From Pectobacterium brasiliense (GTDB lineage: Bacteria; Pseudomonadota; Gammaproteobacteria; Enterobacterales; Enterobacteriaceae), in NCBI RefSeq assembly GCF_013449685.1, contig NZ_JACDSF010000048.1, positions 42,724-84,173 of the forward strand: a DNA stretch of 41,450 bases, read 5' to 3'. The notes below the pieces were generated by a model, which was not told the origin of the DNA, searched no databases, and was given only the letters and a program-made list of their open reading frames with translations. Made by a program: the position numbers and the translations under genes. Positions within the stretch are counted from its first letter, which is position 1, and the number at the start of each line of letters is the position of its first letter. This document shows, in pieces, positions 9,053 through 28,915 of this stretch.

Positions 9053-9456
9053 CTGTCCCTTATACACAAGCCTAGAAGTATCGCGGTTTTTGCCGTGGTC
9101 AGGCGTAAAAAATTATGCTGAGGAGGTAGCTGGCTTCGGATGAGCCGCAGGACGCGGCGAAAGCTTGCGCCACGTCGGACAAAAACGTCAGAGACGTTTT
9201 TGAACAGCACTCGTGCTGGCCCGAAGGGCGAGCCCCATTTATAGGGCGAGTAAACGTGTCGCAAGCGGTCCGCTAAGCCAGATACCGACGAAGGTACCGC
9301 GTCAGCGGCATAATTTCCGCCGAAAGCCTGGGGTCACGGGGCGGCGGCGTTTGAGTCGCCTCGTGTCGGGCGCGTGCTACGCGGTAGCATAAAATAACCG
9401 TATTGTAAGCGCACGAAACCGTCTCTCAGGCTGCATAAGATATAGCTAAGAGACGG
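9053..9456 (-). mobile_element. MITE-like element A with IS50-type ends and an inserted hairpin module
   Basis: The left end ctgtcccttatacacaag agrees with the IS50/Tn5 outer end ctgactcttatacacaag at 16 of 18 positions. The right end, read on the minus strand, is ccgtctcttag. The element aligns in inverted orientation with element C (31222-31473) over both ends and several internal blocks: ggcgtaaaa with ttatgc, gcggcataattt, ggggcggcg, tgctacg with ggtagcat, and gcgcacgaaaccgtctct. It encodes no transposase. About 160 bp are inserted relative to C, within the loop of an aaattatgc/gcataattt inverted repeat; most of that is the hairpin module at 9163-9266. No target duplication is evident. 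On the minus strand it starts 23 nt beyond the mrcB stop, and its first hairpin may serve as the mrcB terminator. Confidence 0.65.
9163..9266. repeat. Hairpin-array module, copy in MITE A
   Basis: An outer 13-bp helix with 12 pairs matched (gcttgcgccacgt 9163-9175, acgtgtcgcaagc 9254-9266) encloses successive hairpins. These are at 9180-9202 (10-bp perfect stem), 9205-9218 (6 bp), 9219-9229 (4 bp) and 9232-9247 (4 bp). The segment 9178-9250 shares its plan, gacaaa...tttga, hairpin, ...agggcgag, hairpin, with the two modules in the ERIC element at 28729-28797 and 28843-28915. Confidence 0.7.
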
Positions 9457-9479
9457 CAACCAGTTGAAGCAACGATAGA

Positions 9480-11960
9480 TTATTGACCAAACATTTGTTT
9501 GATCCAGTCGGCGACGCCTTCTCCATCTTGCTGTCCCTGCTGTGCGGAAGGCTGCGGCTGGCTGGACTGACATAGCGCCTGCGGGTTATCCGTCCAGACC
9601 GGCAAGACACGCCCGGCGCTGCTGCCGTTACAGATAAAGTTACCGCTGGCATCCACCGTCATGGTCGTAATGCCTTCCGGCGGCGTCAGCATTAACGGCA
9701 GCGGCGTTTGGTTTTCCAGATAGCGACGATAAATCGTCAGCGCACCGTTCGCCCCGGTCAGCTTGGCCGGACCGTTGTTATCGCGCCCTACCCAGCTAAT
9801 CGCCACTTCTTTACCGTCGATCCCCGCAAACCAGCTGTCACGCAGGTCATTGGTGGTACCGGTTTTCGCCGCCAGATGATAATTCGGGAATTTCACCGCC
9901 AGCGAGCGCGACGTACCGCGTTCGACAACCTGTTGCATGCCATACAGCGTCAGATAAGCCGCCTGCGCCGGCACCGCGCGTTCCGCCTGCGGGAAGCTCT
10001 GATACAACACCGTACCGTCTTCCGCAATCACCGAACGCAGTGAGGAAAGCGGTGCGCGGTTGCCGCCGCTGGCGATCGTCTGGTATTCCTGTGCCACTTC
10101 CATCGGTGTCAGGCTGATCGCCCCCAGCAGCATCGCCGGTACAGGCTGAATCACGTTTTCTGGGATCCCCAGACGCTTCAACGTTTCCGTAATCTGATTC
10201 AGCCCCACGGCCATACCCAGATTGACGGTCGGCACGTTCAGCGAGTTCGCCAGCGCATCGACCAGCATGACGCGGCCGCGGAACTCACGATCGTAGTTCT
10301 TCGGCTGCCACACCTGCCCGTTAGGCTGTTTGATTGACAGCGGTTCATCCGCCAGCAGGGTGTTCAGACGATAGGTGTCCGGCTGGCTCAGCGCGGTCAG
10401 GTAGGTTGGCGGCTTCGCCAGCGACCCGACAGGGCGACGCGCCTGTAGCGCACGGTTAAACCCGGCGTATTGCGTTTGGGCACCACCGACCATCGCGCGA
10501 ATTTCACCGCTAAAACGATCGACAATCACCATCGCCGCTTCCAGATCGCTCACGTTACGCCCTGCGCGCAGTGCCGGAACCCCAACTTCCACCGCTTTTT
10601 CCGCCGCATCCTGCGAGACCGGATCGAGCGTGGTAAAGATCTTCACGCCTGAGAGATCGTTAACCTTGTCGCCAAGCCGCTGTTGCAGTTCCTGACGCAC
10701 CAGTTGCATAAACGCCGGTTGCGGGCTGATGACGCCACCTTTCGGCTGTACGCCCAACGGACGCGCACTCAGCATGTTGTACAGATCGGCATCAATCACC
10801 TGCTGATTCTGCAACAGGCGCAGCACCAGATTACGTCGCTCTAACGTAATATCAGGGTTACGCCACGGGTTATACAGCGACGCCCCTTTCACCATCCCCA
10901 CCAGCAGCGCCTGCTGATCGAGGCTCAGTTCATTCACTGGACGGCCAAAGTAATACAGGCTGGCAAGCGGGAAGCCGCGGATCTGATCGTTACCGCTCTG
11001 ACCGAGATACACTTCGTTCAGATACAGCTCAAGGATACGATCCTTGCTGTAGCGATAATCCATGATCAGCGCCATATAGGCTTCGTTAGCTTTACGCCAC
11101 AGCGAACGCTCGTTAGTCAGGAACAGGTTCTTAACCAGTTGCTGCGTCAGCGTACTGCCGCCCTGAACCGCGCGTCCCGCCGTGATGTTGGCTAAAAACG
11201 CACGGCCAATGGAGTACAGGCTAATACCATCATGTTCATAAAAGTGGCGATCTTCGGTCGCGACCAGCGTATCAACCAGCAGATCGGGGAAACCGGCACG
11301 CGGCACAAACAAACGCTGTTCGCCATTCGGCGACTGCATCATGGTGATCAGCTTCGGATCGAGGCGGAAAAAGCCGAAGTTACGCTGGTTGTCCAGATTC
11401 TGGATCTGCGACAGGCGATCGTTGGCAAACGTCAGACGTGCCTGAATCTGCCCTTCTTTCCCATCGGGGAAATCAAACGGACGGCGCAGCATATCGATGC
11501 TGTTACCACGCACGCTGAATTCACCCGGACGGGTAATGCGGCTCACCTGACGGTATTGCATACCTTCCAGCAGGCTGATCATCTCTTTCTGGCTGTAGGC
11601 CATGCCCGGCTCAAGGTTGACCATGCGGCCATAGACAGCGGCCGGCAACTGCCAGACTTTGCCTTCAATACGGCTACGGATCTGGCTATCGAGATACACA
11701 CCATAGATAGCCATCGCCACGGCAAAGATCAGGAACAGCTTAATCGCCAGCCCCAGCCAGCGCCGTCTTCTCTGCGGTTTACGCGTCATAGTGTCATCGC
11801 CGTCGTAATCATCATCGTCGTCATAGTCGTCCTGATAATCGTCATAATCTTCATCATCATAGTCGTCATCCCTGCGACGTCGTATGGCCTGCTTGCGTTC
11901 AGGCTTACGTTTTGGCGCTCTCCCTTTGCGTCCGATAGGTTCGCGGTCATCCCGAGACAT
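9480..11960 (-). CDS. mrcB: Bifunctional penicillin-binding protein 1b
   Basis: An 826-aa class A PBP that polymerises and cross-links peptidoglycan in the periplasm, homologous to E. coli PBP1b. Order: basic and Asp/Tyr-rich cytoplasmic tail (residues 1-67, with an acidic run at 31-56), one transmembrane helix at about 68-90, and a UB2H region that docks the activator LpoB. Next is the glycosyltransferase domain, with [10 protein letters not shown] carrying the catalytic Glu and [15 protein letters not shown]. The transpeptidase domain has SLAKP (SxxK), SLN and KTGTT. The frame opens at a GTG at 11969, but the ATG at 11960 has ggag 11 nt upstream and aligns with the E. coli start. The tail keeps the DWIKQMFG motif. 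Confidence 0.96.
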
Positions 11961-12062
11961 TACAATCACTTCTCCGTCAGGTTGTTCACGGCTATCCGCT
12001 CTGCGCTCAAGCCGCCTACTCTGTTTCCAGCCCCTTGTTTGGGAAAGCGGAAACGTCTGAAA

Positions 12063-14531
12063 TTAGTGGTTCTGATATTTCTTGGTACGTCTCGTCGGAG
12101 CCGTATTCGCCGGATCGTCCGGCCAGACATGCTTGGGGTAACGCCCCTTCATTTCTTTTTGCACCTCGCGGTACGTACCTTGCCAGAATGCCGCTAAATC
12201 CCGCGTAATTTGTAGTGGTCGCTGTGCGGGTGATAAAAGTTCCAATACCAGCGCCACACGCCCTTCCGCCAGCAGCGGGCTCTGCTGCTCACCGAACATT
12301 TCCTGCATCCGCACCGACAGTACCGGAGGCTTATCGTCATAATAGGCGATAGGCAAGCGACTGCCGCCGGGTGCCGTGTAGTGCGTGGGCAGCGCGCTAT
12401 CCAGCCGCTGGCGCAGCGACCAGTCCAACAGCCGCAGCAGCGCCTCGCTCAAATTGATCTGGTGCAGCGCCCGTAAATCACGCACGCCGACAAGTGACGG
12501 CTGTAGCCAGATGTCCAGCGTTGCCAGCAGCGTTTCATCATCCACTTGCGGCCAGTCAAGCTCCGGCAACCACTGGCGAGCACACTGTAGCCGGGCGCGT
12601 AGCTGCAACGCCGTGGCGTCCCAGTTTAATGCATCAATCCCCTGCTCCCGAATCCAGAATAACAGCGCCTGCTGCAGTGCTTCATCGGAAGGCTTGTTCA
12701 GCGGGCGTGTTCTCAGGATCAGGCAACCTATCTGGTCACGCTGGCTGGCGCGCAGAGTACCCTTTTCTTCGTCCCAGTGCACCACGTTATGTTCATTTAT
12801 TAGTCCGGGTAGCCGCCGTTCCAGCCGCTCAATATCCAGCGGCAATGCCAGCAGGATCCGTGCCTCTGCGTTCTGATTGTTTTGTGCTGATCGATCGTTC
12901 TGTAAGAGCGCCGGAGCCAGCAACCACTCCGTACCCGACAGCGCCTCATCAGCCGACATCATCGCGCCGCTGCCGTTAGCAAGCTGGTAGCGTCCATCCT
13001 GACTGCGCCGCCGGGCGATGCGGTCGGGGAAAGCCTGTGCCAGCAGCCAGTCGGCTTCCCCGCCGTCAATGCGTCCCGAAGCCGTCGATAAACGGCGCGT
13101 CAGTTGCTTTGCCCGCCGCAGCCAGTGTGGCAATGGACGATGCAGCCAGTCAGCCAGATTGATCGACCCGCTACGCGGCGGTTCTTCGAGGATCGCCGCC
13201 AGACATCCGGCAGTTGCCAATGCATCTGAACCTTGCTGTGACGCGGCATACAGCATCGTCGCCAGTCGGGCATCGCAGCCTAACGCGGCGATCTTCCGTC
13301 CCTCGGCGGTCAGCCGATCCTGTTCATCGGTAATACCAAGCTGGCGTAGCAGCTGGCATGCGGCATAAAGCGCAGGAGCGGGTGGCGTATCCAGCCAGGT
13401 TAACTGCGCCACATCGGTACAACCCCACTGTAATAAATCCAGCCAGACGCTACTTAAATCACTGTTCAGTATTTCAGCTTCGCTTTGCGCCGCCGCGCGT
13501 TCTGCCTGTTCACGTGAGCACAGATGCCAGCACATACCGGGGCTTAAACGTCCGGCACGTCCGGCACGCTGCACCATCGACGCCTGACTGATTCGCTGCG
13601 TCACCAGTCGCGTGACGCCGCTTTTCACATCAAAGCTGGCGACACGCTCAAGGCCACTATCCATCACCAGCCGGATCCCTTCAATCGTCAGGCTGGTTTC
13701 AGCAATATTGGTGGCTAACACCACCTTACGACGACCCGGCTCCGCGGGCAGAATCGCCTTTTGCTGCTCCGCCAGCGTCAACGCACCATATAAAGGGCAG
13801 AGATCCGTCTCGCTCGATACGCTATTTTCCAGCAGCGCCTGCACACGGCGAATCTCCGCGACACCGGGCAAAAACAGCAGCAGCGAACCGTCTTCTTCAC
13901 TGAGCAAACGCCGCACCTGCCGCGCAATGCCCTCTTCCAAACGCTCCTGATTATTCAGCGGCGCATAACACCGTTCAACCGGATAGCTACGACCTTCGGA
14001 AACCACGCAGACGGCTTCCGGCAGCAGCGCCGCCAGCCGCGCATTGTCGAGCGTCGCGGACATAATCAGCAGTTTTAAGTCTTCACGCAGCCCTTGCTGC
14101 ACATCAAGCAGCAGCGCCAATGCCAAATCAGCCTGCACGCTACGCTCGTGAAATTCATCAAGGATAATCAGCGCCACGCCTTGCAGTTCCGCATCCTGTT
14201 GCAGCAAACGGGTTAACATCCCTTCGGTGACGACTTCCAGCTTCGTTGAGTCACTCACGCGGCTTTCCGACCGCATGCGATAACCTATCGTCTGCCCCGG
14301 TTCTTCACCGAGCTGCTGCGCCAGCCGCCAAGCCACGCTCTTCGCCGCCAGACGGCGCGGTTCCAGCATGATGATTCGCCCGTTCACATTGCCCTGTTGC
14401 AGCAATTGCAACGGCAGCCAGGTCGATTTCCCCGCCCCTGTTGGCGCATTAAGCAGCACCTGAGGCGCGGTATGTAGCGCCGTTATGACATCATCCAGCA
14501 CAGCGCTGACGGGCGGTAAAATCACAGACAT
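12063..14531 (-). CDS. hrpB: ATP-dependent RNA helicase-like protein HrpB
   Basis: An 822-aa DEAH-family helicase homologous to E. coli HrpB. Motif I is APTGAGKST, motif II is LDEFHERS (the DEFH variant typical of HrpB), motif III is MSATL, and motif VI is QRAGRAGRL. A C-terminal HrpB-specific region follows and ends in the GRYPKHVWPDDP stretch. The role in the cell is not well defined even in E. coli. It is transcribed divergently from thpR and lies upstream of mrcB on the same strand, with about 100 bp between. Confidence 0.95.
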   Translation of the reverse strand: MSVILPPVSAVLDDVITALHTAPQVLLNAPTGAGKSTWLPLQLLQQGNVNGRIIMLEPRRLAAKSVAWRLAQQLGEEPGQTIGYRMRSESRVSDSTKLEVVTEGMLTRLLQQDAELQGVALIILDEFHERSVQADLALALLLDVQQGLREDLKLLIMSATLDNARLAALLPEAVCVVSEGRSYPVERCYAPLNNQERLEEGIARQVRRLLSEEDGSLLLFLPGVAEIRRVQALLENSVSSETDLCPLYGALTLAEQQKAILPAEPGRRKVVLATNIAETSLTIEGIRLVMDSGLERVASFDVKSGVTRLVTQRISQASMVQRAGRAGRLSPGMCWHLCSREQAERAAAQSEAEILNSDLSSVWLDLLQWGCTDVAQLTWLDTPPAPALYAACQLLRQLGITDEQDRLTAEGRKIAALGCDARLATMLYAASQQGSDALATAGCLAAILEEPPRSGSINLADWLHRPLPHWLRRAKQLTRRLSTASGRIDGGEADWLLAQAFPDRIARRRSQDGRYQLANGSGAMMSADEALSGTEWLLAPALLQNDRSAQNNQNAEARILLALPLDIERLERRLPGLINEHNVVHWDEEKGTLRASQRDQIGCLILRTRPLNKPSDEALQQALLFWIREQGIDALNWDATALQLRARLQCARQWLPELDWPQVDDETLLATLDIWLQPSLVGVRDLRALHQINLSEALLRLLDWSLRQRLDSALPTHYTAPGGSRLPIAYYDDKPPVLSVRMQEMFGEQQSPLLAEGRVALVLELLSPAQRPLQITRDLAAFWQGTYREVQKEMKGRYPKHVWPDDPANTAPTRRTKKYQNH

Positions 14532-14617
14532 CTCCGTATAAAGTTAACTTTCAGCGGCGAGCATTGTAGCATCTGGATGAATGTAGCATCTGATGGAATC
14601 AGAACAGAGAGATCGCC

Positions 14618-15148
14618 ATGTCAGCCACACGCCGCCTGTTTTTTGCCTTATCACTGCCGGAAACCACACAGCAAGAGATTCTCCGCTGGCGTGCCGAGCA
14701 CTTCCTTCTGGAAGCCGGTCGTCCGGTCGCGGCGGCCAATCTTCATCTGACGCTGGCGTTTTTAGGCGATGTCAGCGAGCAAAAAGCGCAGGTTTTGCAA
14801 ACGCTGGCGAGCCGCATCCGTCAGCCCGCCTTTTCCCTTACGCTGAATGACGCCGGACACTGGCCGCGCCCTGGCGTGGTCTGGCTGGGCTGCCGCCGTG
14901 CACCGCGCGGGCTGTTGCAGTTGGCGGAACTGCTGCGTTCTCAGGCGGCGCGCAACGGCTGCTATCAAACGGCATTGCCGTTTCACCCGCACATTACGCT
15001 ACTGCGCGGCGCGACTCGCCCCGTTGCGATTCCCCCCGCCACCTTTAGCTGGCAGGTCGACATGACGCACTTTTCGCTTTACGAGTCACTTTTTGACAAC
15101 GGCAAAACCCGCTATCAACAGTTGGAAAGCTGGCCATTTATTAAATAA
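14618..15148 (+). CDS. thpR: RNA 2',3'-cyclic 3'-phosphodiesterase (2H family)
   Basis: A 176-aa protein, the same length as E. coli ThpR (formerly LigT). It has the two catalytic HxTx motifs of the 2H phosphoesterase superfamily, HLTL near residue 46 and HITL near residue 128. It opens 2',3'-cyclic phosphates on RNA ends and can ligate tRNA halves in vitro. The ATG follows agagagatcgcc. It heads a plus-strand run with sfsA 37 bp downstream, as in E. coli. Confidence 0.94.
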   Translation: MSATRRLFFALSLPETTQQEILRWRAEHFLLEAGRPVAAANLHLTLAFLGDVSEQKAQVLQTLASRIRQPAFSLTLNDAGHWPRPGVVWLGCRRAPRGLLQLAELLRSQAARNGCYQTALPFHPHITLLRGATRPVAIPPATFSWQVDMTHFSLYESLFDNGKTRYQQLESWPFIK

Positions 15149-15185
15149 GTGAGCAGGCGGATAAAACGAACAAAACAGGATACGC

Positions 15186-15890
15186 ATGAACTATACCCCA
15201 CGTTTACAACCTGCCCGGTTGATTAAACGTTACAAACGCTTTTTGGCCGATGTCGTGACCCCGGAAGGCGAGACGCTTACGCTGCACTGTGCCAATACCG
15301 GTGCGATGACGGGCTGTGCAACGCCCGGCGATACTGTCTGGTACTCCACATCGGATAACCCTAAGCGCAAATATGCTCAGAGCTGGGAACTGACTGAAAC
15401 GCAACAAAATCACTGGGTTTGTGTCAATACTCTGCGTGCCAACACATTATTGTACGAAGCCTTATTGGAGAATCGCATAGAAGAGCTGGCAGGCTACCCG
15501 GACGTAAAAACGGAAGTAAAATACGGTACGGAAAATAGCCGAGTCGACCTGCTTTTACAGGCGCCGGACAGGATTGACTGCTATATTGAGGTGAAATCTG
15601 TCACATTATTGCAACATGAATGTGGTTACTTTCCCGATGCGGTGACACTCAGAGGGCAAAAGCATCTGCGTGAACTGCAACAAATGGTTGCCAATGGAAA
15701 ACGCGCAGTCCTTTTTTTCGCCGTGCTCCATTCAGGTATTCAGCAGGTTTCTCCCGCCCGGCATATTGATCCACGCTATGCGGAATTATTTACAGAAGCA
15801 CAACGGGCAGGGGTTGAAATTTTATGTTACGGCTCCACCTTATGCCCTGACGGTATTACATTGACGCATAAGCTACCGTTGTTGGGATGA
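15186..15890 (+). CDS. sfsA: Sugar fermentation stimulation protein SfsA
   Basis: A 234-aa protein aligning end to end with E. coli Sfs[32 protein letters not shown], the nuclease-like core [11 protein letters not shown], and [18 protein letters not shown]. coli SfsA was found through its effect on maltose gene expression and has a predicted nuclease-like fold. The biochemical function is not settled. The start has an aggatacgc leader. It sits between thpR and dksA as in E. coli. Confidence 0.94.
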
Positions 15891-16157
15891 CGTACAAGCA
15901 TTGCATAACACGCCGAACGTACCACTAAAGGCGTAACACATTGTTTATTATTTAATGTAAGCAGGTTGTTCCTCACACTTTATCAGGCCGGTGTCAGGAA
16001 GCATTGCCAACCCCATCTTCATCTGCTATTTATAGCGGCCTGTTTTTCCCCCCTTTGGGGGCCGATATACCCAGATAGCTGAAGTTATGGCCAACAACGC
16101 CGCAATTTCACTACATAAAAGGGTATTATGCGTGTCGTGTTATGTAGGAGAAGCAAC
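15891..16157 (+). other. sfsA-dksA intergenic region
   Basis: A 267-bp non-coding gap that must include the dksA promoter and leader. A short GC hairpin (ccccc 16049-16053, ggggg 16057-16061) follows a five-T run on the plus strand and so has the wrong polarity for a terminator. The dksA ribosome site taggagaag is at about 16145-16153. I see no other supported element. Confidence 0.4.
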
Positions 16158-16613
16158 ATGCAAGAAGGGCAAAACCGTAAGACATCTTCTCTGAGCATTC
16201 TCGCAATTGCCGGAGTAGAGCCGTATCAGGAGAAGCCGGGCGAAGAGTATATGAACGACGCTCAACTGGCTCATTTCAAACGCATTCTTGAAGCATGGCG
16301 CAACCAACTCATGGATGAAGTGGATCGTACGGTATCGCACATGCGCGATGAAGCCGCTAACTTCCCCGATCCCGTGGATCGTGCAGCGCAGGAAGAAGAG
16401 TTCAGTCTCGAACTGCGTAACCGTGACCGTGAGCGCAAGCTGATCAAGAAAATCGCCAAAACCCTGGTGAAAATCGAAGAAGAGGATTTCGGATTCTGTG
16501 AATCCTGTGGCGTCGAGATTGGCATACGCCGTCTGGAAGCCCGTCCGACCGCCGATCTGTGTATCGACTGCAAAACGTTGGCAGAGATACGCGAAAAGCA
16601 AATGGCAGGCTAA
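16158..16613 (+). CDS. dksA: RNA polymerase-binding transcription factor DksA
   Basis: A 151-aa protein from this start, the same length as and nearly identical to E. coli DksA. It enters the RNA polymerase secondary channel and, with ppGpp, represses rRNA promoters and activates amino-acid genes. Visible are the coiled-coil tip residues in [14 protein letters not shown] and the four-cysteine zinc finger CESCG...CIDCK. The frame is open 10 codons further upstream, but ATG 16158 has aggag a few bases before it and matches the conserved [15 protein letters not shown] start. gluQ follows after a strongly structured 128-bp gap. Confidence 0.97.
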
Positions 16614-16615
16614 TT

Positions 16616-16664
16616 TTCCTGTCCAGAATCGGCTCCTGCCCGGCGCGGGGGCCGACTCCAGGAA
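16616..16664 (+). terminator. Nested hairpin between dksA and gluQ (possible attenuator)
   Basis: Three stems nest within 49 nt: ttcctg/caggaa (outer), tcggc/gccga (middle) and cccg/cggg (inner, 3-nt loop). No T-run follows, so it is not a canonical intrinsic terminator. A regulatory terminator between dksA and gluQ is known in Shigella, and this structure lies at the same place. Function here is inferred. Confidence 0.45.
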
Positions 16665-16741
16665 CACGACCGCTGATGAATGATGTTCATCACTCTATCT
16701 TTTGTCTGGATAAAGCGCTGACGAGATAGCATCAACCTCTT

Positions 16742-17674
16742 ATGTCTGGAACAACTGGTTTCACCGAAACGCATCGTTACGTCGGGCGTTTTGCCCCCTC
16801 TCCTTCTGGTGACCTGCATTTTGGCTCACTGATCGCCGCACTCGGTAGCTATCTGCAAGCGCGTTCCCAACAAGGGCGCTGGCTGGTACGCATTGAAGAC
16901 ATCGACCCGCCACGGGAAATTCCCGGCGCAGCCTCTCGTATCCTTGCACAATTAGAACATTACGGCCTGTATTGGGACGGCGAGGTGATGTACCAATCAC
17001 AGCGGCATGCGCGTTACCGCGAGATCCTTCAGCAGCTTCGACAGCAGGGAGTGAGCTACTACTGCACTTGTACGCGTAGCCGTATTCAGCAGCTAGGTGG
17101 ACACTATGACGGTTATTGCCGGACGCGTAACCTGCCCTCCGATAACGCCGCACTACGCCTGCACCAGACAACGCCGGTATTTCACTTTCATGATAAATTG
17201 CGTGGTGAGCTGTATGCCGACACGGCACTCGCGCAGGAAGATTTTATTATCCACCGCCGCGATGGGCTGTTTGCCTATAATCTGGCCGTCGTGATCGACG
17301 ATAACGATCAGGGTATTACGGAGATCGTGCGTGGCGCCGATCTGATCGAGCCGACAGTGCGACAAATTTCGCTCTATCAGCAATTGGGCTACGCGATCCC
17401 TACCTACGTTCATCTGCCGCTGGCGCTGAATACCGAGGGAAATAAGCTTTCCAAGCAGAATCATGCACCGGCACTACCGAATAGCGATCCGCGTCCCGTG
17501 CTGCTGGCTGCACTGCAGTTCTTGAACCAACCGCTGCCGGACAACGGTCAGGAGATGACACTTTCCGCACTTCTGGCCTGGTCTGTCGCGCACTGGTCCC
17601 TTGATGTTGTTCCGTTGCAGCCGGCAATAAACCCGTCCGCGATCACATCGGCATTCTCAAAGGGGCATTGGTGA
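16742..17674 (+). CDS. gluQ: Glutamyl-Q tRNA(Asp) synthetase
   Basis: A 310-aa truncated GluRS paralogue lacking the anticodon-binding domain. It activates glutamate and transfers it to queuosine at position 34 of tRNA-Asp, which is notable because this window carries two tRNA-Asp genes. Visible are the class I motif HFGS in [13 protein letters not shown], the KLSKQNH version of KMSKS, and the cysteine cluster [10 protein letters not shown] with a later YCR that form the zinc site. Usual lengths are about 300 aa. Start: ATG at 16742, with only a weak upstream ribosome site. It lies downstream of dksA, as in E. coli. Confidence 0.95.
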
Positions 17675-17810
17675 GCTATGATTAGCCGCTATTTTTAGTG
17701 ACGCACTCTCTTTGGCCGTCACATTTGCAGGCCGTCACTGGGTCGACGTCAAAAACGTTTCCCGGAAATTTTTTGCTGTGCCGTTGATTTATCCATCACT
17801 ATCGAGGTGT

Positions 17811-19814: not shown

Positions 19815-19839
19815 GTAACTTGAAGCGCGACGGGTATAT
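19815..19839 (+). repeat. Solo ERIC-type terminus upstream of panB
   Basis: gtaacttgaagcgcgacggg plus tatat matches the ERIC right end seen at 28931-28955. It ends 68 bp before the panB start. Confidence 0.6.
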
Positions 19840-19907
19840 CGCTACACGTCGGCTTACATTAGAATGTCCCCCTCAATTCTTCGCCCTATTGACATAGGAA
19901 GACCGTC

Positions 19908-20705: not shown

Positions 20706-20743
20706 GACATTCATTTCATTGAGAAATGTCGTTTCATTAAAGA
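20691..20743 (+). repeat. 17-bp tandem repeat across the panB stop codon
   Basis: cattcgtttcattgaga (20691-20707, containing the panB TGA) is followed by cattcatttcattgaga (20708-20724). A diverged third unit, aatgtcgtttcattaaaga, lies at 20725-20743. The duplication lengthens the panB-panC spacer. Confidence 0.85.
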
Positions 20744-20786
20744 ACGAGCATTCCATTAATCAGGCTATTTTTTTAGGAGTACGGGT

Positions 20787-21641
20787 GTGTTAATTATCGA
20801 AACCCCTCTGCTGCTGCGCCGCGAGGTTCGCCGCTGGCGTCAGGAAGGGAAACGCATTGCTTTAGTCCCCACCATGGGTAATTTGCATGACGGGCACATG
20901 ACACTGGTCGATGAAGCCAGAGCACGTGCCGATATCGTTATTGTCAGCGTTTTTGTCAATCCTATGCAGTTTGAGCGGCCGGATGATTTAGCCCGCTACC
21001 CCCGGACGTTGCAGGAAGACTGCGAGAAATTGAATCGCCGCGGTGCCGATCTGGTTTTCGCACCGAGCCCGGATGTGATATACCCCAATGGGCTGGAGTC
21101 GCAAACGTTTGTCGATGTGCCCGGCCTGTCTTCCATGTTGGAAGGTGCCAGCCGTCCCGGTCATTTTCGGGGCGTTGCGACCATCGTAAGTAAGTTGTTC
21201 AATATGGTACAACCGGATGTCGCCTGCTTCGGTGAGAAAGATTACCAGCAGCTAGCGCTGATTCGGCAGCTTGTCCGCGATATGGGCTATGACATTAATA
21301 TTATTGGTGTCCCTACCGTGCGTGCCAAAGACGGTTTGGCATTGAGTTCACGTAATGGCTATCTCAGTGCGGAAGAACGCCAGCAGGCACCGTATGTTCA
21401 TCAGGTAATGATGGACATGGCGACACAGTTGGACAACGGCGATCGCCAGATAGACACCTTGCTGGAACAAGCGGCAGACAAGCTGCGTGAAGCGGGCTTT
21501 ACGCCTGATGAACTGTTTATCCGCGATGCAGATACGCTGCAACCGCTGAGCGCGGCCAGCACGCGTGCAGTGATTTTGATGGCTGCCTGGTTAGGCAAGG
21601 CCAGATTGATTGATAACCACCAAGTCGATTTGACTGTATGA
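20787..21641 (+). CDS. panC: Pantothenate synthetase
   Basis: A 284-aa ATP-dependent ligase joining pantoate and beta-alanine, of the HIGH-superfamily nucleotidyltransferase fold. Motifs: [10 protein letters not shown] (HIGH-like), [34 protein letters not shown] and the KMSKS-like [13 protein letters not shown]. The start is GTG at 20787, 7 nt after aggag, and reads [10 protein letters not shown] as in E. coli. It lies between panB and panD; panD follows after 17 bp. Confidence 0.97.
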
Positions 21642-21658
21642 ACCGAGGTAACAAAGCG

Positions 21659-22039
21659 ATGATACGTACCATGCTGCAAGGCAAGCTGCACCGGGTCAAA
21701 GTGACTCAGGCTGACTTGCATTATGAAGGCTCTTGCGCCATCGATCAGGATTTTATGGATGCCGCCGGCATTCTGGAATACGAAGCGATTGATATCTACA
21801 ACGTTGATAACGGTCAGCGTTTCTCTACCTACGCCATTGCGGGCGAAAGAGGTTCACGCATTATCTCCGTAAACGGCGCCGCCGCGCGCCTTGCCTGCGT
21901 GGGCGACAAACTGATTATCTGCTCCTACGTGCAGATGTCCGACGAACAGGCCAGAAGCCACAGCCCGAAGGTTGCCTATTTCTCTGGCGATAATGAGCTA
22001 CAGCGTCAGGCCAAAGCGATTCCGGTTCAGGTTGCCTGA
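21659..22039 (+). CDS. panD: Aspartate 1-decarboxylase proenzyme
   Basis: A 126-aa pyruvoyl enzyme that makes beta-alanine from aspartate for PanC. The self-cleavage site is Gly24-Ser25 in YEGSCAID, where Ser25 becomes the pyruvoyl group. The frame is open 7 codons earlier, but the ATG at 21659 follows gaggtaacaaagcg and matches the family start [15 protein letters not shown]. Unlike E. coli, where an extra gene separates panC from panD, the two are adjacent here. It ends at a bidirectional terminator. Confidence 0.97.
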
Positions 22040-22054
22040 TCGCTTTAGATAAGC

Positions 22055-22082
22055 AAAAGGCGGTGTTACCACCGCCTTTTCA
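22055..22082. terminator. Bidirectional terminator between panD and yadH
   Basis: A 10-bp stem (aaaaggcggt / accgcctttt) with a 6-nt loop carries A and T tracts on both sides, so it can end both the pan cluster and the convergent yadGH transcripts. Confidence 0.9.
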
Positions 22083-22099
22083 TTTACAGAATTGACACA

Positions 22100-22870
22100 C
22101 TATGTCCGTAACCCGCGACCGCGTTCAATCAGCCACCAGACCAGCAGATAAAACACCACGATAAAGGCAATCAGCACCGACATTGTGAACAGCAGCGGTA
22201 CATCCTGAATCCCGAGGAAGCCATAGCGGAAGCCGCTAATCATGTACACAACTGGGTTCAGCTTGGAGACGGCCTGCCAGAACGGCGGCAACAGCGTCAA
22301 CGAGTAAAACACCCCGCCCAGATAGGTCAGCGGCGTTAACACAAACGTCGGAATCAGGCTGATATCATCAAAAGTTTTTGCAAACACCGCATTCAATAAG
22401 CCTGCCAGCGAGAACAGTGTCGCCGTCAGCAAGAGCGTCAGAACAATGATCCACCAGGCATGAACATGCAGCGGGACGAAGAACAGCGATACGGCAGTCA
22501 CCAGTACCCCGACGCACAGGCCACGTGCAATCCCCCCACCAACATAGCCCGCAATGATCACGTGAGTCGGCACTGGCGCGACCAGCAGTTCTTCAATATT
22601 GCGTTGAAACTTGGCGCTGAAAAAAGAAGAAGCAACGTTGGCATAGGCGTTGGTAATGACCGCCATCATGATCAGGCCCGGCACGATAAATTGCATGTAG
22701 GTGAAACCGTGCATGTCACCAATACGCGAGCCGATCAGGTTGCCAAAAATAATGAAATACAGCGTCATGGTGATCACTGGCGGCACCAGCGTCTGAATCC
22801 AGATACGCCCAAATCGAGTGACTTCTTTCACCCAAATACTCTGTAGCGCTACCCAATACAAATGCATCAT
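22100..22870 (-). CDS. yadH: ABC-2 type transporter permease YadH
   Basis: A 256-aa inner-membrane permease with about six hydrophobic segments and the ABC-2 hallmark near FRYGFLGIQDV. It pairs with the ATPase YadG encoded immediately upstream, whose stop it overlaps by 4 bp. The YadGH substrate is not established; membership of the ABC-2 exporter family suggests export of a drug, lipid or polysaccharide. Gene order matches E. coli. Confidence 0.93.
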   Translation of the reverse strand: MMHLYWVALQSIWVKEVTRFGRIWIQTLVPPVITMTLYFIIFGNLIGSRIGDMHGFTYMQFIVPGLIMMAVITNAYANVASSFFSAKFQRNIEELLVAPVPTHVIIAGYVGGGIARGLCVGVLVTAVSLFFVPLHVHAWWIIVLTLLLTATLFSLAGLLNAVFAKTFDDISLIPTFVLTPLTYLGGVFYSLTLLPPFWQAVSKLNPVVYMISGFRYGFLGIQDVPLLFTMSVLIAFIVVFYLLVWWLIERGRGLRT

Positions 22871-23805
22871 GCCTTTTCTCCCTTACTGTTCGCCCCGTCC
22901 CCATTAACCAAGGTGACAAACAGCTCTTCCAACCGGTTCGCTTTATTACGCATACTTAGAATCGTTATCCCCTGCGCGCTTAGCTGGCTGAATAACGCAT
23001 TCAGACCTTGCTCACGCATCACATCCACTTCCAGTGTTGACGTATCCACCAAGCGGAACACATAGCCTTCCAGCTGTGGCAGCGGGCTTTTCGCCGCCAG
23101 ATCGAAAATAAACGTTTCGGACTTCAACTGAGCAAGTAACTGCTTCATCGAGGTGTTCTCCACCAGCTCTCCCCGCTGGATGATCCCGATGTTGCGGCAC
23201 AGCATTTCCGCTTCTTCAAGATAGTGCGTCGTCAGGATAATCGTGGTGCCCTGCGCGTTCAGTTCCTTCAAAAAGCCCCACATGGAACGACGTAATTCGA
23301 TATCCACACCTGCGGTCGGTTCATCAAGAATCAGCAGCTTAGGCTCATGCATTAACGCACGCGCAATCATCAGGCGGCGCTTCATCCCGCCGGACAACAT
23401 CATCGCTTTTTCGTTGCGTTTTTCCCACAGATCGAGCTGTTTCAGGTATTTTTCGGCACGCTGCAATGCATCCTGACGTTTCACGCCATAATAGCCAGCC
23501 TGATTAACCACAATCTGTAATACCGTTTCGAAAGGATTGAAGTTAAATTCCTGCGGGACCAGCCCCAGTTGGCGTTTCGCATTCACTTTGTCCAGCTCAA
23601 GGTCATAGCCGAAGACGCGAACTTTACCAGCAGTTTTATTCACCAGCGAGCTGATAATCCCAATCGTGGTCGATTTTCCCGCGCCATTTGGCCCCAGAAG
23701 CGCATAGAAATCCCCCGCTTCCACGTTCAGGTCGATCCCCCGTAGCGCCTGGACGCCTCCCGAATAGGTTTTGGTTAGTTGCGCCAGTTCCAGTGCATAT
23801 GTCAT
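22867..23805 (-). CDS. yadG: ABC transporter ATP-binding protein YadG
   Basis: A 312-aa ABC ATPase of the ABC-2/DrrA type. Walker A is GPNGAGKSTT, the Q-loop is LVPQEFNFNPFETV, the signature is LSGGMKRRL, Walker B is LLILDEPTAGVD, and the switch histidine is in LTTHYLEEAE. A C-terminal domain typical of DrrA-like exporters follows residue 220. It forms the motor for YadH, with a 4-bp overlap. Divergent from can. Confidence 0.94.
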   Translation of the reverse strand: MTYALELAQLTKTYSGGVQALRGIDLNVEAGDFYALLGPNGAGKSTTIGIISSLVNKTAGKVRVFGYDLELDKVNAKRQLGLVPQEFNFNPFETVLQIVVNQAGYYGVKRQDALQRAEKYLKQLDLWEKRNEKAMMLSGGMKRRLMIARALMHEPKLLILDEPTAGVDIELRRSMWGFLKELNAQGTTIILTTHYLEEAEMLCRNIGIIQRGELVENTSMKQLLAQLKSETFIFDLAAKSPLPQLEGYVFRLVDTSTLEVDVMREQGLNALFSQLSAQGITILSMRNKANRLEELFVTLVNGDGANSKGEKA

Positions 23806-23838
23806 AAGAAATGGATTGCCTTATTATCAGTGAATTCT

Positions 23839-23862
23839 ACAAATTTGAAGTATGACGGAGAT
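23839..23862 (+). repeat. Solo ERIC-type terminus upstream of can
   Basis: acaaatttgaagtatgacgg plus agata matches the ERIC right end. It ends 80 bp before the can start. Confidence 0.55.
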
Positions 23863-23942
23863 AAACTATCGTTTTTCAAACGACGCATGTTGCCTTATAT
23901 TACTCCTCACTGCCCCTTGTTTGTTACAGGTCATTTACTTTC

Positions 23943-24584
23943 ATGAAAGAAATTGAAACGCTCATCGCCAATAACCAGCTTTGGTCTAAAACGATGGTGG
24001 AAGAGGATCCTGGCTATTTTGAACGTCTGGCGCAGGCACAACGTCCCCGTTTTCTATGGATTGGATGCTCGGACAGTCGCGTACCTGCGGAAAGTCTGAC
24101 CAGCCTTGAGCCTGGTGAACTGTTTGTTCACCGCAACGTCGCCAATCTGGTTATTCACACCGACCTCAATTGCCTGTCTGTCGTGCAATATGCCGTCGAA
24201 GTTCTCGAAGTCGAACATATCATTATCTGCGGTCACTACGGCTGCGGTGGTGTTCAGGCTGCGGTGGAAAACCCGGAACTGGGTTTGATTAACAACTGGC
24301 TGCTGCATATCCGTGATTTGTGGTACAAGCATAGTTCGCTGCTGGGGGAATTACCTCCCGAACAGCGGCTGAATACGCTCTGTGAAATCAACGTTGTCGA
24401 GCAGGTTTATAACCTCGGCCACTCCACCATCATGCAGTCCGCCTGGAAGCGTGGTCAGAAAGTCACGATCCACGGTTGGGTTTACGGTATTCAGGATGGC
24501 CGTCTGCGCGATCTGGAAGTGACGGCGACCAACCGGGAGACGCTGGAACAGCGTTATCGCCGCGCGATTTCCTCCCTGCCTTGA
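23943..24584 (+). CDS. can: Beta-class carbonic anhydrase
   Basis: A 213-aa beta-carbonic anhydrase that interconverts CO2 and bicarbonate for carboxylation reactions; it is essential in air in E. coli. Zinc ligands are visible: Cys and the Asp-Arg dyad in [10 protein letters not shown] near residue 42, and His and Cys in [10 protein letters not shown] near residues 98-101. HRNVANLV is also conserved. It is slightly shorter than E. coli Can (220 aa) at the C-terminus. It diverges from yadGH and converges on hpt. Confidence 0.96.
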
Positions 24585-24594
24585 TACGCTGTCT

Positions 24595-24615
24595 GACGCC
24601 CACTCGCTGGGCGTC
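24595..24615. other. Hairpin between convergent can and hpt
   Basis: A 7-bp stem (gacgccc / gggcgtc) with a 7-nt loop lies 11 bp after the can stop. There is no T-run, so a terminator role is possible but unproven. Confidence 0.45.
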
Positions 24616-24643
24616 GCTCACGGCATCGGCCTTATCTGATACG

Positions 24644-25177
24644 CTATTCCTGTGGAACAACCTTGCCGACGTAAGGTAAGTGGCGATAGTGCTGGGCATA
24701 GTCGATGCCGTAACCCACAACGAATTCATCAGGGATCGAGAACCCAACCCACTCAACTTTCACCGCCACTTCACGGCGCTCTGGTTTGTCCAGCAGCGTA
24801 CAGATAGCCAGCGATTTTGGCTCACGCAGTTGCAGAATTTCCCGCACTCTGCTCAGTGTGTTGCCCGAATCGATAATATCTTCAACGATCAACACGTCTT
24901 TGCCGCGAATATCTTCATCCAGATCTTTCAGGATTTTAACATCGCGCGTACTGTTCATACCGCTGCCATAGCTGGATGCCGTCATGAAGTCCACTTCGTG
25001 AGGGACATCAATCGCCCGACATAAATCGGCCATAAAGATAAACGATCCACGCAATAGCCCCACCAGCACCATATCGCTGCCGCTATCACGGTAGTGTTCG
25101 CTGATCTGTTGCCCCAGTTCGGTAACCCGCGCCATCACTTCCTGCTCAGAAATCATGACTTCCACGGTATGTTTCAT
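24644..25177 (-). CDS. hpt: Hypoxanthine phosphoribosyltransferase
   Basis: A 177-aa purine salvage enzyme that makes IMP or GMP from hypoxanthine or guanine with PRPP. The PRPP-binding motif is [30 protein letters not shown] and the substrate region [14 protein letters not shown] are also clear. The frame is open to 25213, but the family start MKHTVEVMI corresponds to 25177, with an ATG one codon earlier at 25180 also possible. It converges on can, as in E. coli. Confidence 0.96.
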
Positions 25178-25329
25178 CATACTGATAACTCTTTGAAGTA
25201 AGGTATTCAGCACCCTCGGTAGAATGACAGACTCATTATCGATGATGCGCCAATGCTGACTTTTGAATCAGTCTGGGCAATGCCCAAGCGCGCGAAGTAT
25301 ATCAGAAACCACACCATGAAGGAGACACC

Positions 25330-25764
25330 ATGAGCACACCACCAGTGGATGTTTGCTACAAAGTGAACGCCCCGCTTTCCAGTCAGCAGTTCATTGAGCT
25401 GTTGGCGAAAACGTCATTGGGGCCGCGCCGCCCGCTGGATGATGAGACGGCAATTGCAGGTATGCTTAAGCACGCCAACCTGCTGGTTTCCGCCTGGCAA
25501 GGAGAGACGCTGGTTGGGATCGCGCGCAGCGTGACAGATTTTCATTTTTGCTGCTATCTGTCCGATCTGGCGGTATCAGAGGACTGTCAGCACGCAGGAA
25601 TAGGCAAGAAGCTGATTCAACAAACCGCTCAGCAGCTTGAAAAAGGCTGCAAAATTATTTTGCTGGCCGCGCCGCTGGCGGTAGATTACTACCCGAAATT
25701 AGGGTTTGAAAAGCACAATAGCACGTGGATCATGCCTGCGTCAGACCTGCACACAGAGGCATAA
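25330..25764 (+). CDS. GNAT-family N-acetyltransferase
   Basis: A 144-aa GNAT fold protein. The acetyl-CoA-binding motif A is visible as LSDLAVSEDCQHAGIGKKLI (Q-x-x-G-x-G), followed by DYYPKLGFEKH, where the conserved Tyr/Gly segment of motif B is found. The acceptor substrate cannot be told from sequence. The start is preceded by aaggagacacc. Its stop directly abuts the stop of the convergent fbpC-like gene. It lies where E. coli has gcd and cueO, so this is a replaced segment. Confidence 0.85.
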   Translation: MSTPPVDVCYKVNAPLSSQQFIELLAKTSLGPRRPLDDETAIAGMLKHANLLVSAWQGETLVGIARSVTDFHFCCYLSDLAVSEDCQHAGIGKKLIQQTAQQLEKGCKIILLAAPLAVDYYPKLGFEKHNSTWIMPASDLHTEA

Positions 25765-26850
25765 TCATTTCGTTTCAGAACCGTCAACCGGAGTGCTGGC
25801 GGCAGGCAAAGCAGGATACAAGACTGGCGGATCCGTCTTAATGCTTAAACGCACCTGCTGCCCCGGTTCAAACCAGTTGCCAGTCTGCACCAGCAGCATC
25901 AGTTCTCCCATCTTCACCCGATACAAGTTTGATGTGCCCATGAATAGCCTGTCTTCGATCGACGCCGGACCATCGGGATCGAGCGCCAACGCCACGTCTG
26001 CCGGGCGTACCATCCAGTCGCATTGTGAATCCATCGGCTGATTGAGCGGATGGGTCGCCTGATGATCGCCCAATGGGCTTTGCCATTGATGGTCGCTCAT
26101 AATTTTCACAGGCAAATAGTTCGTATTCCCCATAAAATCAGCGACAAAGCGGCTATTCGGGCGATGGTACAGCTCGGATGGATAGCCCTGCTGCATAATC
26201 TTCCCTTCATCCAGCAGAATCAGATGGTCGGCGCAGGCAAAAGCTTCCTCCCGACTGTGCGTAGCGAAAACCGCCGCCACATGACGCTGTTTGAGAATCT
26301 GCCGCAATTCGGTGATCAGGCGATAGCGGGTCTGGCTGTCCAGACCGGGAAACGGCTCATCCAGCAACAGCAGTTTCGGCTCACAGGCCAGCGCGCGGGC
26401 TATCGCCAAACGCTGCTGCTGTTCATTGGATAGCTCGTGTGGATAACGTGCGGCAACCTCATCCAGTTGCAAGAGCGTCAGCATCTCCGCACAGATTGGC
26501 TTTACCTCGCTGTCTGGGCGGCCATACAACCCAAACGCAATGTTGCCTTCCACGGTGAGATGCGGAAAGAGCGCGTAGTCCTGAAAAATCAGGCCAACCT
26601 GGCGCAGCTCGGGCAGGACGTACGCTTGCGGCGAGCTGACGGGTTCACCTTCCAGAACAATCTTGCCTTGAGTAATCGGCAGCAAGCCGGCGATCACCTG
26701 TAACAGCGCCGTTTTACCACAGCCGTTTCGCCCCAACAGGCAGATCGTCTCATCATCACGCACGGTAAATGAGATGTTCTCCAGCACGGGAGACTGCTGC
26801 AACGTACAACTTACTGCCTGAACGCTCAGAATATCTATCGGCGCGGCCAT
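25765..26850 (-). CDS. Ferric-iron-type ABC importer ATP-binding protein (FbpC/AfuC-like)
   Basis: A 361-aa ABC ATPase with an extra C-terminal regulatory region from about residue 240, as in CUT1/FbpC subunits. Walker A is GRNGCGKTALL, Walker B is LLLLDEPFPGLD, and the switch histidine is in FATHSREEA. The signature is LSNEQQQR rather than LSGGQQQR, so both glycines are replaced; the nucleotides at 26419-26433 confirm this. The start ATG lies 4 bp after the permease gene. No periplasmic binding-protein gene accompanies the pair. Iron as substrate is inferred from family similarity only. Confidence 0.88.
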   Translation of the reverse strand: MAAPIDILSVQAVSCTLQQSPVLENISFTVRDDETICLLGRNGCGKTALLQVIAGLLPITQGKIVLEGEPVSSPQAYVLPELRQVGLIFQDYALFPHLTVEGNIAFGLYGRPDSEVKPICAEMLTLLQLDEVAARYPHELSNEQQQRLAIARALACEPKLLLLDEPFPGLDSQTRYRLITELRQILKQRHVAAVFATHSREEAFACADHLILLDEGKIMQQGYPSELYHRPNSRFVADFMGNTNYLPVKIMSDHQWQSPLGDHQATHPLNQPMDSQCDWMVRPADVALALDPDGPASIEDRLFMGTSNLYRVKMGELMLLVQTGNWFEPGQQVRLSIKTDPPVLYPALPAASTPVDGSETK

Positions 26851-26854
26851 GTGA

Positions 26855-28477
26855 TTATCCTTTTATATTCAGTGCGCGATTCAGCCAGAAAACAGGGATT
26901 AACCCTACCGCTACCAGCACCAGCGCAGGAAAGGCAAATGACGCAATCTGCTCATCCGCCGTAAAGCGGAAAACATACGTTGCCAACGTATCAATCCCGA
27001 AAGGGCGCAGCAGTAACGAGATATTCAGCTCTTTCATACTTTCCGTAAAAATCAGCAGTGCCCCGATGAACAGGCTGCGACGCAACAGCGGAATATGTAC
27101 GCGTGACCAGCGGCTGAGGGGAGAAGCACCCAGTACAAGACTTGCACTGTCCAGCGATCGTGGAATGCCTTCCATGCTGCGCTCAAGGCTGTCCAGCATC
27201 AGACGCCCAAATTTAACGCTATAGGCGAGGATGAGAATAAACAACGATCCCGCCAGCAAAGCCTCCGCGGGAGGTAACCCCGCCGCGTTGGCAAATAGAT
27301 TAATTCCACTGTCCACCAGCGACAGCAAAGTAAACAGTCCGACGGCAAGTACCGCGCCGGGCAAGGCAAAACTCAGGCTGACTAGCCGAACCGGTGTCTG
27401 ATTGACAAATATCCCAGCCGTGCGCGTGTAAAAGATAAACGACAGCGCCATTAGCGTAATGATGATAGTCGCGATGGCAGAGGCTAACAGGCTATTCATC
27501 ACTGCATGGAGGAACGCCATATCCCACACTGACATCATGTGTCGGAGTGCCAGAAAGAGTAGATATAGCACCGGGAACAGAAACGACAGACAAACGATGC
27601 CCCAGCAGTAACTGCGAACCACTTTGCTGCGCCACCCGCTCAACACAGGCGGAACCACCTGAGAAGGATTGGCTTGAGCTTGATAAATTCTCTGCTTGCG
27701 ACGCCAGACATTAACCAGAAACATCAAGAGGAAGATCGCGGGCAAAATCAACACGCCAACGCGTGCCGCCGCGCCGAGATCGCCCTGCTTCTGCCAGATA
27801 TCCAGCACCTGTGTTGTCATCGTTGGGGTATCAAGATAAGACGCCGCGCCATAATCGCCCAGCGTTTCAACCACCACTAGCGCGCCACCGCAGGCAATCG
27901 CAGGCAGTGCAATAGGCAAACATAAGCGGCGTAAAACCTGGGTACGTGTTTGATTCAGTAATCGAGCCGAATGAATCAAGCTGGCAGGCTGTTTCGCCAG
28001 CGCTTCACGCACCAGCAGGTAAATATAGGGATAAAGCACCAGCGCCAACACCAGACTGATGCAGCCCAGCGAAACGGGTAGCCCAGCGATGTGGGATTTC
28101 CCCCACGACGAGGCTATCTGCAGCCCGCCTTCCTGCAACAACCGGGATAGGTGCCGTAGCACATCGGTATAAAGGTAGGCGAGTAGAAACGCGGGCATCG
28201 CGAGCGGCAGGCAAAGCGCCCATTGCAGTACGCGATGACTGGGAAAACGGTACATGGCGATAAACCAGGCGGAAGGCAACCCAAACAGTAAACTGAAGAA
28301 AAGCGTGCCAATCACGATGACCACTGAATGTATCAGATAGGTGGGTAACCCGATTTGCCACAGTTGGCTAAATCCCATCCCATCGGCAAAAAAAGCCTGA
28401 TAAAAAACCGTTGCTAAAGGAAGCAGCAACAGTCCCGCCAACAACCAACTACTGACGCGCCAAACACCGGAGATCAT
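26855..28477 (-). CDS. Ferric-iron-type ABC importer permease (FbpB/AfuB-like, duplicated)
   Basis: A 540-aa inner-membrane protein with about twelve hydrophobic segments. It is two fused BPD-type permease halves, each with an EAA-like loop (SARLLNQTRTQVLRRLCLPIALPAI in the first half, LVLGASPLSRWSRVHIPLL in the second). This arrangement is typical of FbpB/SfuB-type ferric importers. The cognate ATPase is immediately downstream. A perfect 16-bp palindrome lies about 30 bp upstream of the start. The substrate is inferred. Confidence 0.88.
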   Translation of the reverse strand: MISGVWRVSSWLLAGLLLLPLATVFYQAFFADGMGFSQLWQIGLPTYLIHSVVIVIGTLFFSLLFGLPSAWFIAMYRFPSHRVLQWALCLPLAMPAFLLAYLYTDVLRHLSRLLQEGGLQIASSWGKSHIAGLPVSLGCISLVLALVLYPYIYLLVREALAKQPASLIHSARLLNQTRTQVLRRLCLPIALPAIACGGALVVVETLGDYGAASYLDTPTMTTQVLDIWQKQGDLGAAARVGVLILPAIFLLMFLVNVWRRKQRIYQAQANPSQVVPPVLSGWRSKVVRSYCWGIVCLSFLFPVLYLLFLALRHMMSVWDMAFLHAVMNSLLASAIATIIITLMALSFIFYTRTAGIFVNQTPVRLVSLSFALPGAVLAVGLFTLLSLVDSGINLFANAAGLPPAEALLAGSLFILILAYSVKFGRLMLDSLERSMEGIPRSLDSASLVLGASPLSRWSRVHIPLLRRSLFIGALLIFTESMKELNISLLLRPFGIDTLATYVFRFTADEQIASFAFPALVLVAVGLIPVFWLNRALNIKG

Positions 28478-28505
28478 AGAATAAAAACTGTATTAGATGA
28501 GATCG

Positions 28506-28521
28506 CTGTTATTAATAACAG
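28506..28521. promoter_or_regulatory. Perfect 16-bp palindrome upstream of the fbpB-like gene
   Basis: ctgttattaataacag reads the same on both strands and begins 29 bp upstream of the permease start at 28477. Symmetry and location suggest an operator. It does not match the Fur consensus well, and the cognate regulator is unknown. Confidence 0.45.
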
Positions 28522-28689
28522 AGGCTGACGGTGGCGTCATCGTATCAAACAGCGATAAATGGGCTTTAATCCTGCGATTAACCTGAGGCGATTGCCATCA
28601 CCGACTGCCACTAAAATAAAATTCAACCATTTCAATAGATTGCAATTATGCGTTTTCCGCCTTTTCACCATTCATTTTTTATCGCAATC
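28522..28689. other. Non-coding gap, AT-rich
   Basis: Between the palindrome and the ERIC element I see no gene, terminator or clear promoter. The segment is AT-rich and probably holds promoter elements of the fbp-like operon. Confidence 0.4.
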
Positions 28690-28728
28690 CCCTAAATAAT
28701 TCGAGTTGCAGGCAGGCGGCGACACAGC

Positions 28729-28797
28729 GACAAATTCGTCAGGAACGAATTTGACCAGCCAGTGGCTGGCCTCTGGTGAGAGACAGGATGTCTCTCA
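28729..28797. repeat. Hairpin-array module, left ERIC insert
   Basis: gacaaattcgt...acgaatttga (9-bp stem), then ccagcca g tggctgg, then tgagagaca gga tgtctctca (9-bp stem). The order and spacing of the first two hairpins match the module in MITE A at 9178-9220, with compensated differences in both stems. Confidence 0.72.
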
Positions 28798-28842
28798 TTC
28801 ATCCCCAGGAACTTACATAAGTAAGTGACTGGGGTGAGCGAG

Positions 28843-28915
28843 GACAAATCGGCTTAGCCGATTTGAGCGCCGCTTGCGGCGACCCTTCAGGGCGAGGCTC
28901 AGAGATGAGCCGAGT
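28843..28915. repeat. Hairpin-array module, right ERIC insert
   Basis: gacaaatcggc tta gccgatttga (9-bp stem), cgccgc tt gcggcg, ccct tc aggg followed by cgag, then ggctca gaga tgagcc. The agggcgag box between the third and fourth hairpins is shared with the MITE A copy. Confidence 0.72.

Follow-up and report, generated by a model that had tools for sequence, protein, structure and literature searches.

How can short segments that lie in unrelated repeats share one plan of hairpins while the letters of their stems differ? The question is raised by a 41,450-nt stretch of Pectobacterium brasiliense DNA (contig NZ_JACDSF010000048.1; hereinafter the window, in whose positions coordinates are given unless another locus is named), where an earlier note had pointed to three segments of about 70 bp, one inside a miniature inverted-repeat transposable element (MITE) and two in the arms of an enterobacterial repetitive intergenic consensus (ERIC) element. 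The three segments are genuine copies of one family, referred to below as the module, which is 70-74 nt long and has four hairpins. Its folding is maintained while its letters change, the folds being largely kept, and it is a discrete unit that is present or absent at orthologous loci. We consider it probably a non-autonomous small mobile element, MITE/REPIN-like in behaviour.

Family, range and folding of the module

The shared plan was present at all three places, and folding gave hairpins I, II, a short III and IV; in the second segment the pairing of hairpin III consisted of two G-C pairs only and was missing from the predicted fold. All three segments folded better than their dinucleotide shuffles (z = -4.39, -3.52, and -3.69 for the first, second, and third, respectively). 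Comparison with empty sites bore out the three copies and shifted the limits proposed for them to about 9180-9252, 28731-28800, and 28845-28918 (all on the plus strand; model matches of 66.6, 45.7, and 53.7 bits, respectively), the GA that precedes each insert being target or shared letters. The agggcgag box that had been described for two of the copies was found as AGGGCGAG at 9225 and 28889, and the first segment contained a second AGGGCGAG at 9243.

A plain sequence search with the first segment as query gave 13 matches in the genome of the window, and the ERIC region gave 32, some of them to ERIC alone. The matches found by sequence had one hairpin plan and differing surroundings. A covariance model built from nine of these copies matched 52 places in the same genome, and a broader model from 20 copies matched at least 63 (E ≤ 0.01), a lower bound because 150 of 1853 candidates were scored. 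Model matches were obtained in 37 of 59 genomes (the window's own included) and 13 of 35 genera. All 25 genomes of the genus Pectobacterium had matches, and those for which 81 candidates were scored had 31 to 81 each. A sample of evenly spaced stretches from two genomes, 800 kb in all, gave 18 matches. Further, one exact standalone-type pattern hit 35 stretches in the named genome collection, of which 33 were from Pectobacterium and 2 from Brenneria; one of them, a tandem array in P. polonicum, gave 10 matches with a period near 74. At a locus from another genus (L101, 430-530), two modules were separated by runs of AAATCA and GCTAACA repeats. In a genome of the same order (L102, 1480-1660), a module lay within an apparent repeated stretch of tRNA 3' end and terminator hairpins.

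Beyond these genomes, an ERIC-nested module as query matched 674 of 5426 Escherichia coli genomes. All four of the matching E. coli regions that were read lay within ERIC, and one standalone copy as query had no match in the E. coli genomes. With ERIC plus module as query, 589 of the 5426 genomes contained at least 80% of its length somewhere. On the E. coli plasmid pH222-1 (L282), a module-bearing ERIC lay in the gap between ybtP and ybtA.

The alignment used below contained 122 matches, obtained by a model search of 100 loci (including 5 of the 35 pattern stretches) at E ≤ 0.001, in which cmsearch keeps one of two overlapping tandem copies. The four-hairpin plan was shared among the 122, and the likeness was thus not limited to the gacaaa and agggcgag strings; a chance likeness of short strings was ruled out by the genome-wide search together with the covariation. 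At gathering thresholds, Rfam gave two tRNAs in the window and nothing else. With a relaxed threshold on five loci, Ysr224 scored 61.6 bits (cut-off 70), mostly over a part resembling the repeat YPAL, and AaHKsRNA22 scored 31.3 bits on a module (cut-off 39.8). A known RNA family was therefore rejected, no Rfam match on the module being above threshold.

That the stems change on both sides at once was examined with our own version of the R-scape idea, which is not R-scape itself: substitutions were placed on a tree by parsimony and redistributed randomly over the branches 60 times. In the model-fitted alignment (113 unique of the 122 rows, 75 columns with <50% gaps), 9 of 2556 column pairs were significant at E ≤ 0.05, and all nine were in stems I, II, and IV; stem III hardly varied. 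When the 113 unique sequences were aligned with MAFFT, blind to structure, 8 pairs out of 2628 were significant, again all in the structure, and the subsets of standalone and nested copies gave 2/2 and 3/3 in the structure. Significant covariation was thus confined to the proposed pairs in both alignments, and stem changes that are mostly uncompensated were not what the genome-wide comparison found.

Most copies came from searches with a structure model, and such searches favour paired copies; the nine copies mentioned above had come from plain sequence search. Among their pair cells, 96.9% were standard pairs, and changes on both sides were seen in 30 cells against a shuffled mean of 10.7, with none of 500 shuffles as high. 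Among the pair cells of the unique rows, excluding the outermost pair of stem I, 2406 were Watson-Crick, 71 G.T, 36 A.C, and 106 other. The excess of G.T over A.C (71 vs. 36, or 58 vs. 30 in distinct stems, the rows being related) suggests that the strand read from hairpin I to IV is the one that folds. Old module copies decay. A degraded, standalone-like fourth copy was present in the window at 17697-17775 on the minus strand (26.9 bits, E 9.3e-5).

Filled and empty sites in different settings

Comparison of occupied and empty orthologous sites, as the earlier note had suggested, revealed a discrete insert at several loci, and its idea that the module enters different repeats was borne out by filled and empty sites in ERIC, in a larger element, and beside a terminator. 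Both modules near 28.7 kb lay in the arms of one ERIC, as had been described, at 28687-28954 on the plus strand; its relatives throughout the genus matched about query 188-455 of window 28500-29240. The ERIC ends and central hairpin were recognized in this host and not in the module itself. The left-arm module was a clean 70 nt insert after ACACAGCGA, and the right-arm module followed GAGCGAGGA and replaced AA, a net gain of 72 nt. Between them lay the ERIC central hairpin with a short flank (28801-28844, plus strand), whose letters were common to plain ERIC copies. This locus was readable in 7 of the 25 Pectobacterium genomes: G005 had no ERIC, G020 and G011 had a plain ERIC, G018 had the left module only, and G000 and G008 had both modules, while in G006 a module lay close to the left end of a degenerate, ERIC-like element.

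The first copy lay in the loop of the central palindrome (CACGT/ACGTG) of a larger MITE-like host repeat of about 380 bp (9077-9460, approximate limits, plus strand) with many relatives in the genus; these limits follow the broadest stretch that other copies match in common, about query 378-761 of window 8700-9760. The larger element was filled in G000, G021, and G007, and it lacked the module in G008, G009, G024, G004, G015, and G005, where the empty loop read CACGT-AGGGA-ACGTG in five genomes and CACGT-CGGGA-ACGTG in one. The other 16 of the 25 genomes had no comparable element or no resolved state. Among them, G001 had a truncated copy, and in G003 (L239) the larger element lay in the opposite orientation, had the loop ATGGA and lacked the module; it appears to have entered this gap independently.

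The IS50-type ends proposed for this MITE-like host were not supported, since a single end resembles a mosaic end. One 16-mer at the left border (9053-9068, CTGTCCCTTATACACA) differed by one mismatch from a mosaic-end string, and the other two matches with up to three mismatches, at 31222 and 31458, were far from the element. The larger-element copy in L002 did not show this 16-mer.

Outside other repeats, a locus next to a terminator was classified by match pattern in the 25 genomes as 8 filled, 14 empty (split match), 1 rearranged, and 2 without a call. In the letters, six empty genomes had a single TA-A-tract-CG, and in the genome of the window the 74 bp insert was flanked by TAAAAAAACG as a direct repeat; filled G009 had one A fewer on one side. 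In addition, the dxs-yajO gap of E. coli occurred in three states, namely no ERIC, plain ERIC (BL21), and ERIC with a module.

The settings of the copies were assigned by heuristic context classes, with five rows re-labelled by hand (which took the standalone rows from 84 to 81). Of 59 rows from the genome of the window, 24 stood alone before an A-tract, 7 stood alone elsewhere, 20 were in ERIC, 5 in the larger element, and 3 in a YPAL-like host; the 17 rows of the even sample were divided into 4, 4, 8, 0, and 1 in the same order. Four module matches were within the YPAL-like host, an assignment that was based on RU-2 letters quoted in PMC2759123 and on the sub-threshold Ysr224 match over the same stretch. 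In ERIC, insertion sites were of three kinds (one close to the left end and two directly adjoining the central hairpin, one on either side), and every pairing of these kinds occurred among the two-module ERICs. Nested rows started with GA in 37 of 41 cases, 36 of which were GAC. In 61 of the 81 standalone rows hairpin IV abutted an A-tract; all 61 ended in TA, and 46 began with TA. By a simple open reading frame (ORF) rule, the gene on the hairpin IV side converged on the copy in 39 of these 61 rows, in which the A-tract is thus the complement of that gene's terminator T-tract.

At L283 (E. coli, bsmA-yjfN), an ERIC had modules near both its left-end and its right-arm site, and at L034 (1626-1692) the right-arm site of one ERIC had hairpin I only, a partial module, together with a full module near the left end. 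The reverse nesting was seen at L052 and L190 (the C79:128332 region of the genome of the window), where an ERIC lay inside hairpin IV of a standalone module and the GGCAGAC ... GTCTGCC arms were retained.

How the module may spread

The module resembles a MITE in being a short unit in many copies that is present or absent at orthologous sites. If it is a mobile element, as we think probable, an enzyme acting in trans would recognize its folded single strand, read from hairpin I to IV, and mainly the copies still able to fold would spread, so that stems would be kept paired. The favoured targets would be palindromes, that is, the loops of other repeats and terminator tracts. After entry into ERIC or the larger element, the composite would probably travel with that host or be passed from one host copy to another by gene conversion. 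A more specific version, which we put forward tentatively and hold to be rather unlikely, is that the enzyme inserts the unit into a loop directly after GA, recognizing GGA-loop hairpins both in the unit (I and IV) and in the targets; hairpins would then enter the loops of other hairpins and produce nested palindromes. In its favour, the empty loops of the larger element read AGGGA, CGGGA, or ATGGA, and the module's own loops often contain GGA. The YPAL/RU-2 sequence, as printed in the passages available from PMC2759123, likewise has GGA at the point that matches the module insertion.

Several results weigh against mobility of the module itself. The filled and empty sites may reflect loss of the unit as well as gain. 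A direct repeat was seen at the terminator site and none at the ERIC or larger-element sites, so that target duplication was not constant. The best 12-base match between the ends, sought as terminal inverted repeats in 113 rows, had a median of 5, as in shuffled sequences. A PF01797 search of the genome of the window gave one gene and no mobilizing enzyme was identified, relatives and other enzyme families not being searched, and the 3.4 kb locus of that gene contained no module match (E ≤ 10). As for the upkeep of the fold, a simple rule found a contiguous stem IV of 5 bp in all but 24 of the 75 unique standalone sequences; the number of further pair types, one of five measures, was not above shuffles (13 vs. 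14.9 and 26 vs. 24.4); and right-arm modules at one locus differed in a stem I pair between G-C and A.A (G000 and G008). Moreover, modules clustered by host context, with 10 context changes against a shuffled mean of 35.9, and this clustering, though in keeping with a mobile module, also fits spread along with the host. The tree behind these counts contained 110 of the 122 rows, those of <64 nt and duplicates being excluded, and 69 of its 107 inner branches were without resolution.

This clustering suggests that host sites were probably entered few times and that the composites were afterwards carried along by the host or passed on by gene conversion. The strongest alternative goes further and holds that the module is hardly mobile alone: a few old insertions would have founded lineages, and loci now filled would have been filled by gene conversion from a filled copy. 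This is a real possibility, though one we find less probable than mobility. Each host site tends to carry a module lineage of its own, with the 10 changes of context in all; five copies at the ERIC site before the central hairpin formed one group (SH-aLRT 100); and donors exist, ERIC and the larger element being abundant. However, the empty sites read at the terminator locus had no host repeat, yet among the 25 genomes 8 were filled at this locus and 14 were empty, and conversion between hosts therefore does not account for it.

The hairpins might instead act at the RNA level as RsmA/CsrA sites, in which case dispersed copies might bind or titrate these proteins, or might mark the mRNAs on which they lie. 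We regard this as unlikely, although the loops invite it: hairpin IV frequently reads C-A-N-GGA-T-G and hairpin I NNGGA, which is close to the CsrA consensus, given in the relevant passages of PMC7652899 as RUACARGGAUGU from SELEX with an ANGGAN loop. GGA was present in loop I of 57 and loop IV of 60 of the 75 unique standalone sequences, and in both loops of the YPAL-nested copies (4/4 each). Three of the four E. coli ERIC-nested copies also had a GGA loop in hairpin IV by a simple rule, with a varying base before GGA, and the G.T excess on the I-to-IV strand is in keeping with this reading. In contrast, GGA was often missing from unique ERIC-nested sequences (present in 11/29 of loops I and 8/29 of loops IV) and absent from both loops of the larger-element copies (0/5 each), yet the stems were still paired. 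Further, the gene on the hairpin I side ran towards the module in 28 of the 61 A-tract rows and away from it in 31, with none found in 2 (counts by the simple ORF rule, with orthologues and tandem copies included). Because these genes run both ways, many standalone copies are not obviously within a transcript of the I-to-IV strand, and a purely 3'-UTR (untranslated region) RNA element was rejected on the same counts.

A role as transcription terminator, attenuator, or mRNA-stability element, for which the module would be kept because it aids the 3' ends of genes, seems more doubtful still. Standalone copies do adjoin terminator hairpins, with an A-tract following in 61 of 81 rows, and ERIC is reported to change mRNA stability in Yersinia (as described in part of PMC2229807). 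Nevertheless, at the terminator locus the terminator was present at empty sites without the module, the same module occurs within other repeats, and convergence of the hairpin-IV-side gene (39/61) places the module beyond that gene's own terminator. Finally, a RAYT-driven REPIN was rejected for the genome of the window, where the sole Y1 gene, the single PF01797 match, was an IS200/IS605 transposase (NF033573, 139.8 bits, cut-off 55; REP-associated model, 27 bits, below the cut-off of 80) with no module nearby, and where inverted halves of the REPIN type were not seen in the module (best 16-base match of the left part to the reverse-complemented right part, median 9, shuffled 9).

Relation to known repeat families

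Small structured repeats such as ERIC serve in typing, and their movement is not established according to the relevant part of PMC2229807. Our literature search gave no paper on the module as a family common to several repeats, which is no proof of absence. What appears to be new is that the insert forms a family in its own right, with copies that stand alone or in tandem, several hosts unrelated to one another, empty sites defined to the base, and stems that covary. It offers a tractable system, with compensated folds, defined entry points in unrelated repeats, and polymorphism within E. coli, in which the exact positions of filled and empty sites can be given, the plain ERIC of the laboratory strain BL21 among them. 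It also places ERIC internal insertions in a wider family and provides a clear case of covariation in DNA that is not known as an RNA gene.

ERIC elements with insertions of about 70 bp were reportedly described by Wilson and Sharp in 2006, and we take the ERIC-nested copies of E. coli and Pectobacterium to be, very probably, these insertions. The two are alike in size, in their fixed internal sites, and in polymorphism among strains. Unlike those insertions, the module is not confined to ERIC: it also stands alone, forms tandem copies, and lies in a YPAL-like and another element, and its stems show compensatory changes.

REPINs, as presented in the passages available from PMC3116915, resemble the module as many-copy small hairpin units with near-identical tandem clusters and compensatory hairpin changes. 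They differ in that the genome of the window has no RAYT above cut-off (PF01797, NCBIfam), that the module has no inverted pair of halves, and that it inserts after GA or beside TA/A-tracts. The pneumococcal BOX, RUP, and SPRITE repeats (PMC3049150, in part) are likewise modular or terminator-like structured intergenic repeats, deemed parasitic and slow in transposition. In that description, however, the modules of BOX are parts of one element, whereas here one module has several unrelated hosts, which sets the two apart by description. With CsrB/RsmB-type loops, as far as they are covered in the relevant passages of PMC7652899, the module shares GGA in hairpin loops, but it is no sRNA (small RNA) gene, and many nested copies have no GGA.

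YPAL/RU-2 (De Gregorio, 2006, as conveyed in passages of PMC2229807 and PMC2759123) has targets that span or adjoin dyad symmetry. It is thus, like the module, a short palindromic repeat with dyad-symmetry targets; by the same passages it differs in sequence and is about 168 bp long, and YPAL is a host of the module rather than the module itself.

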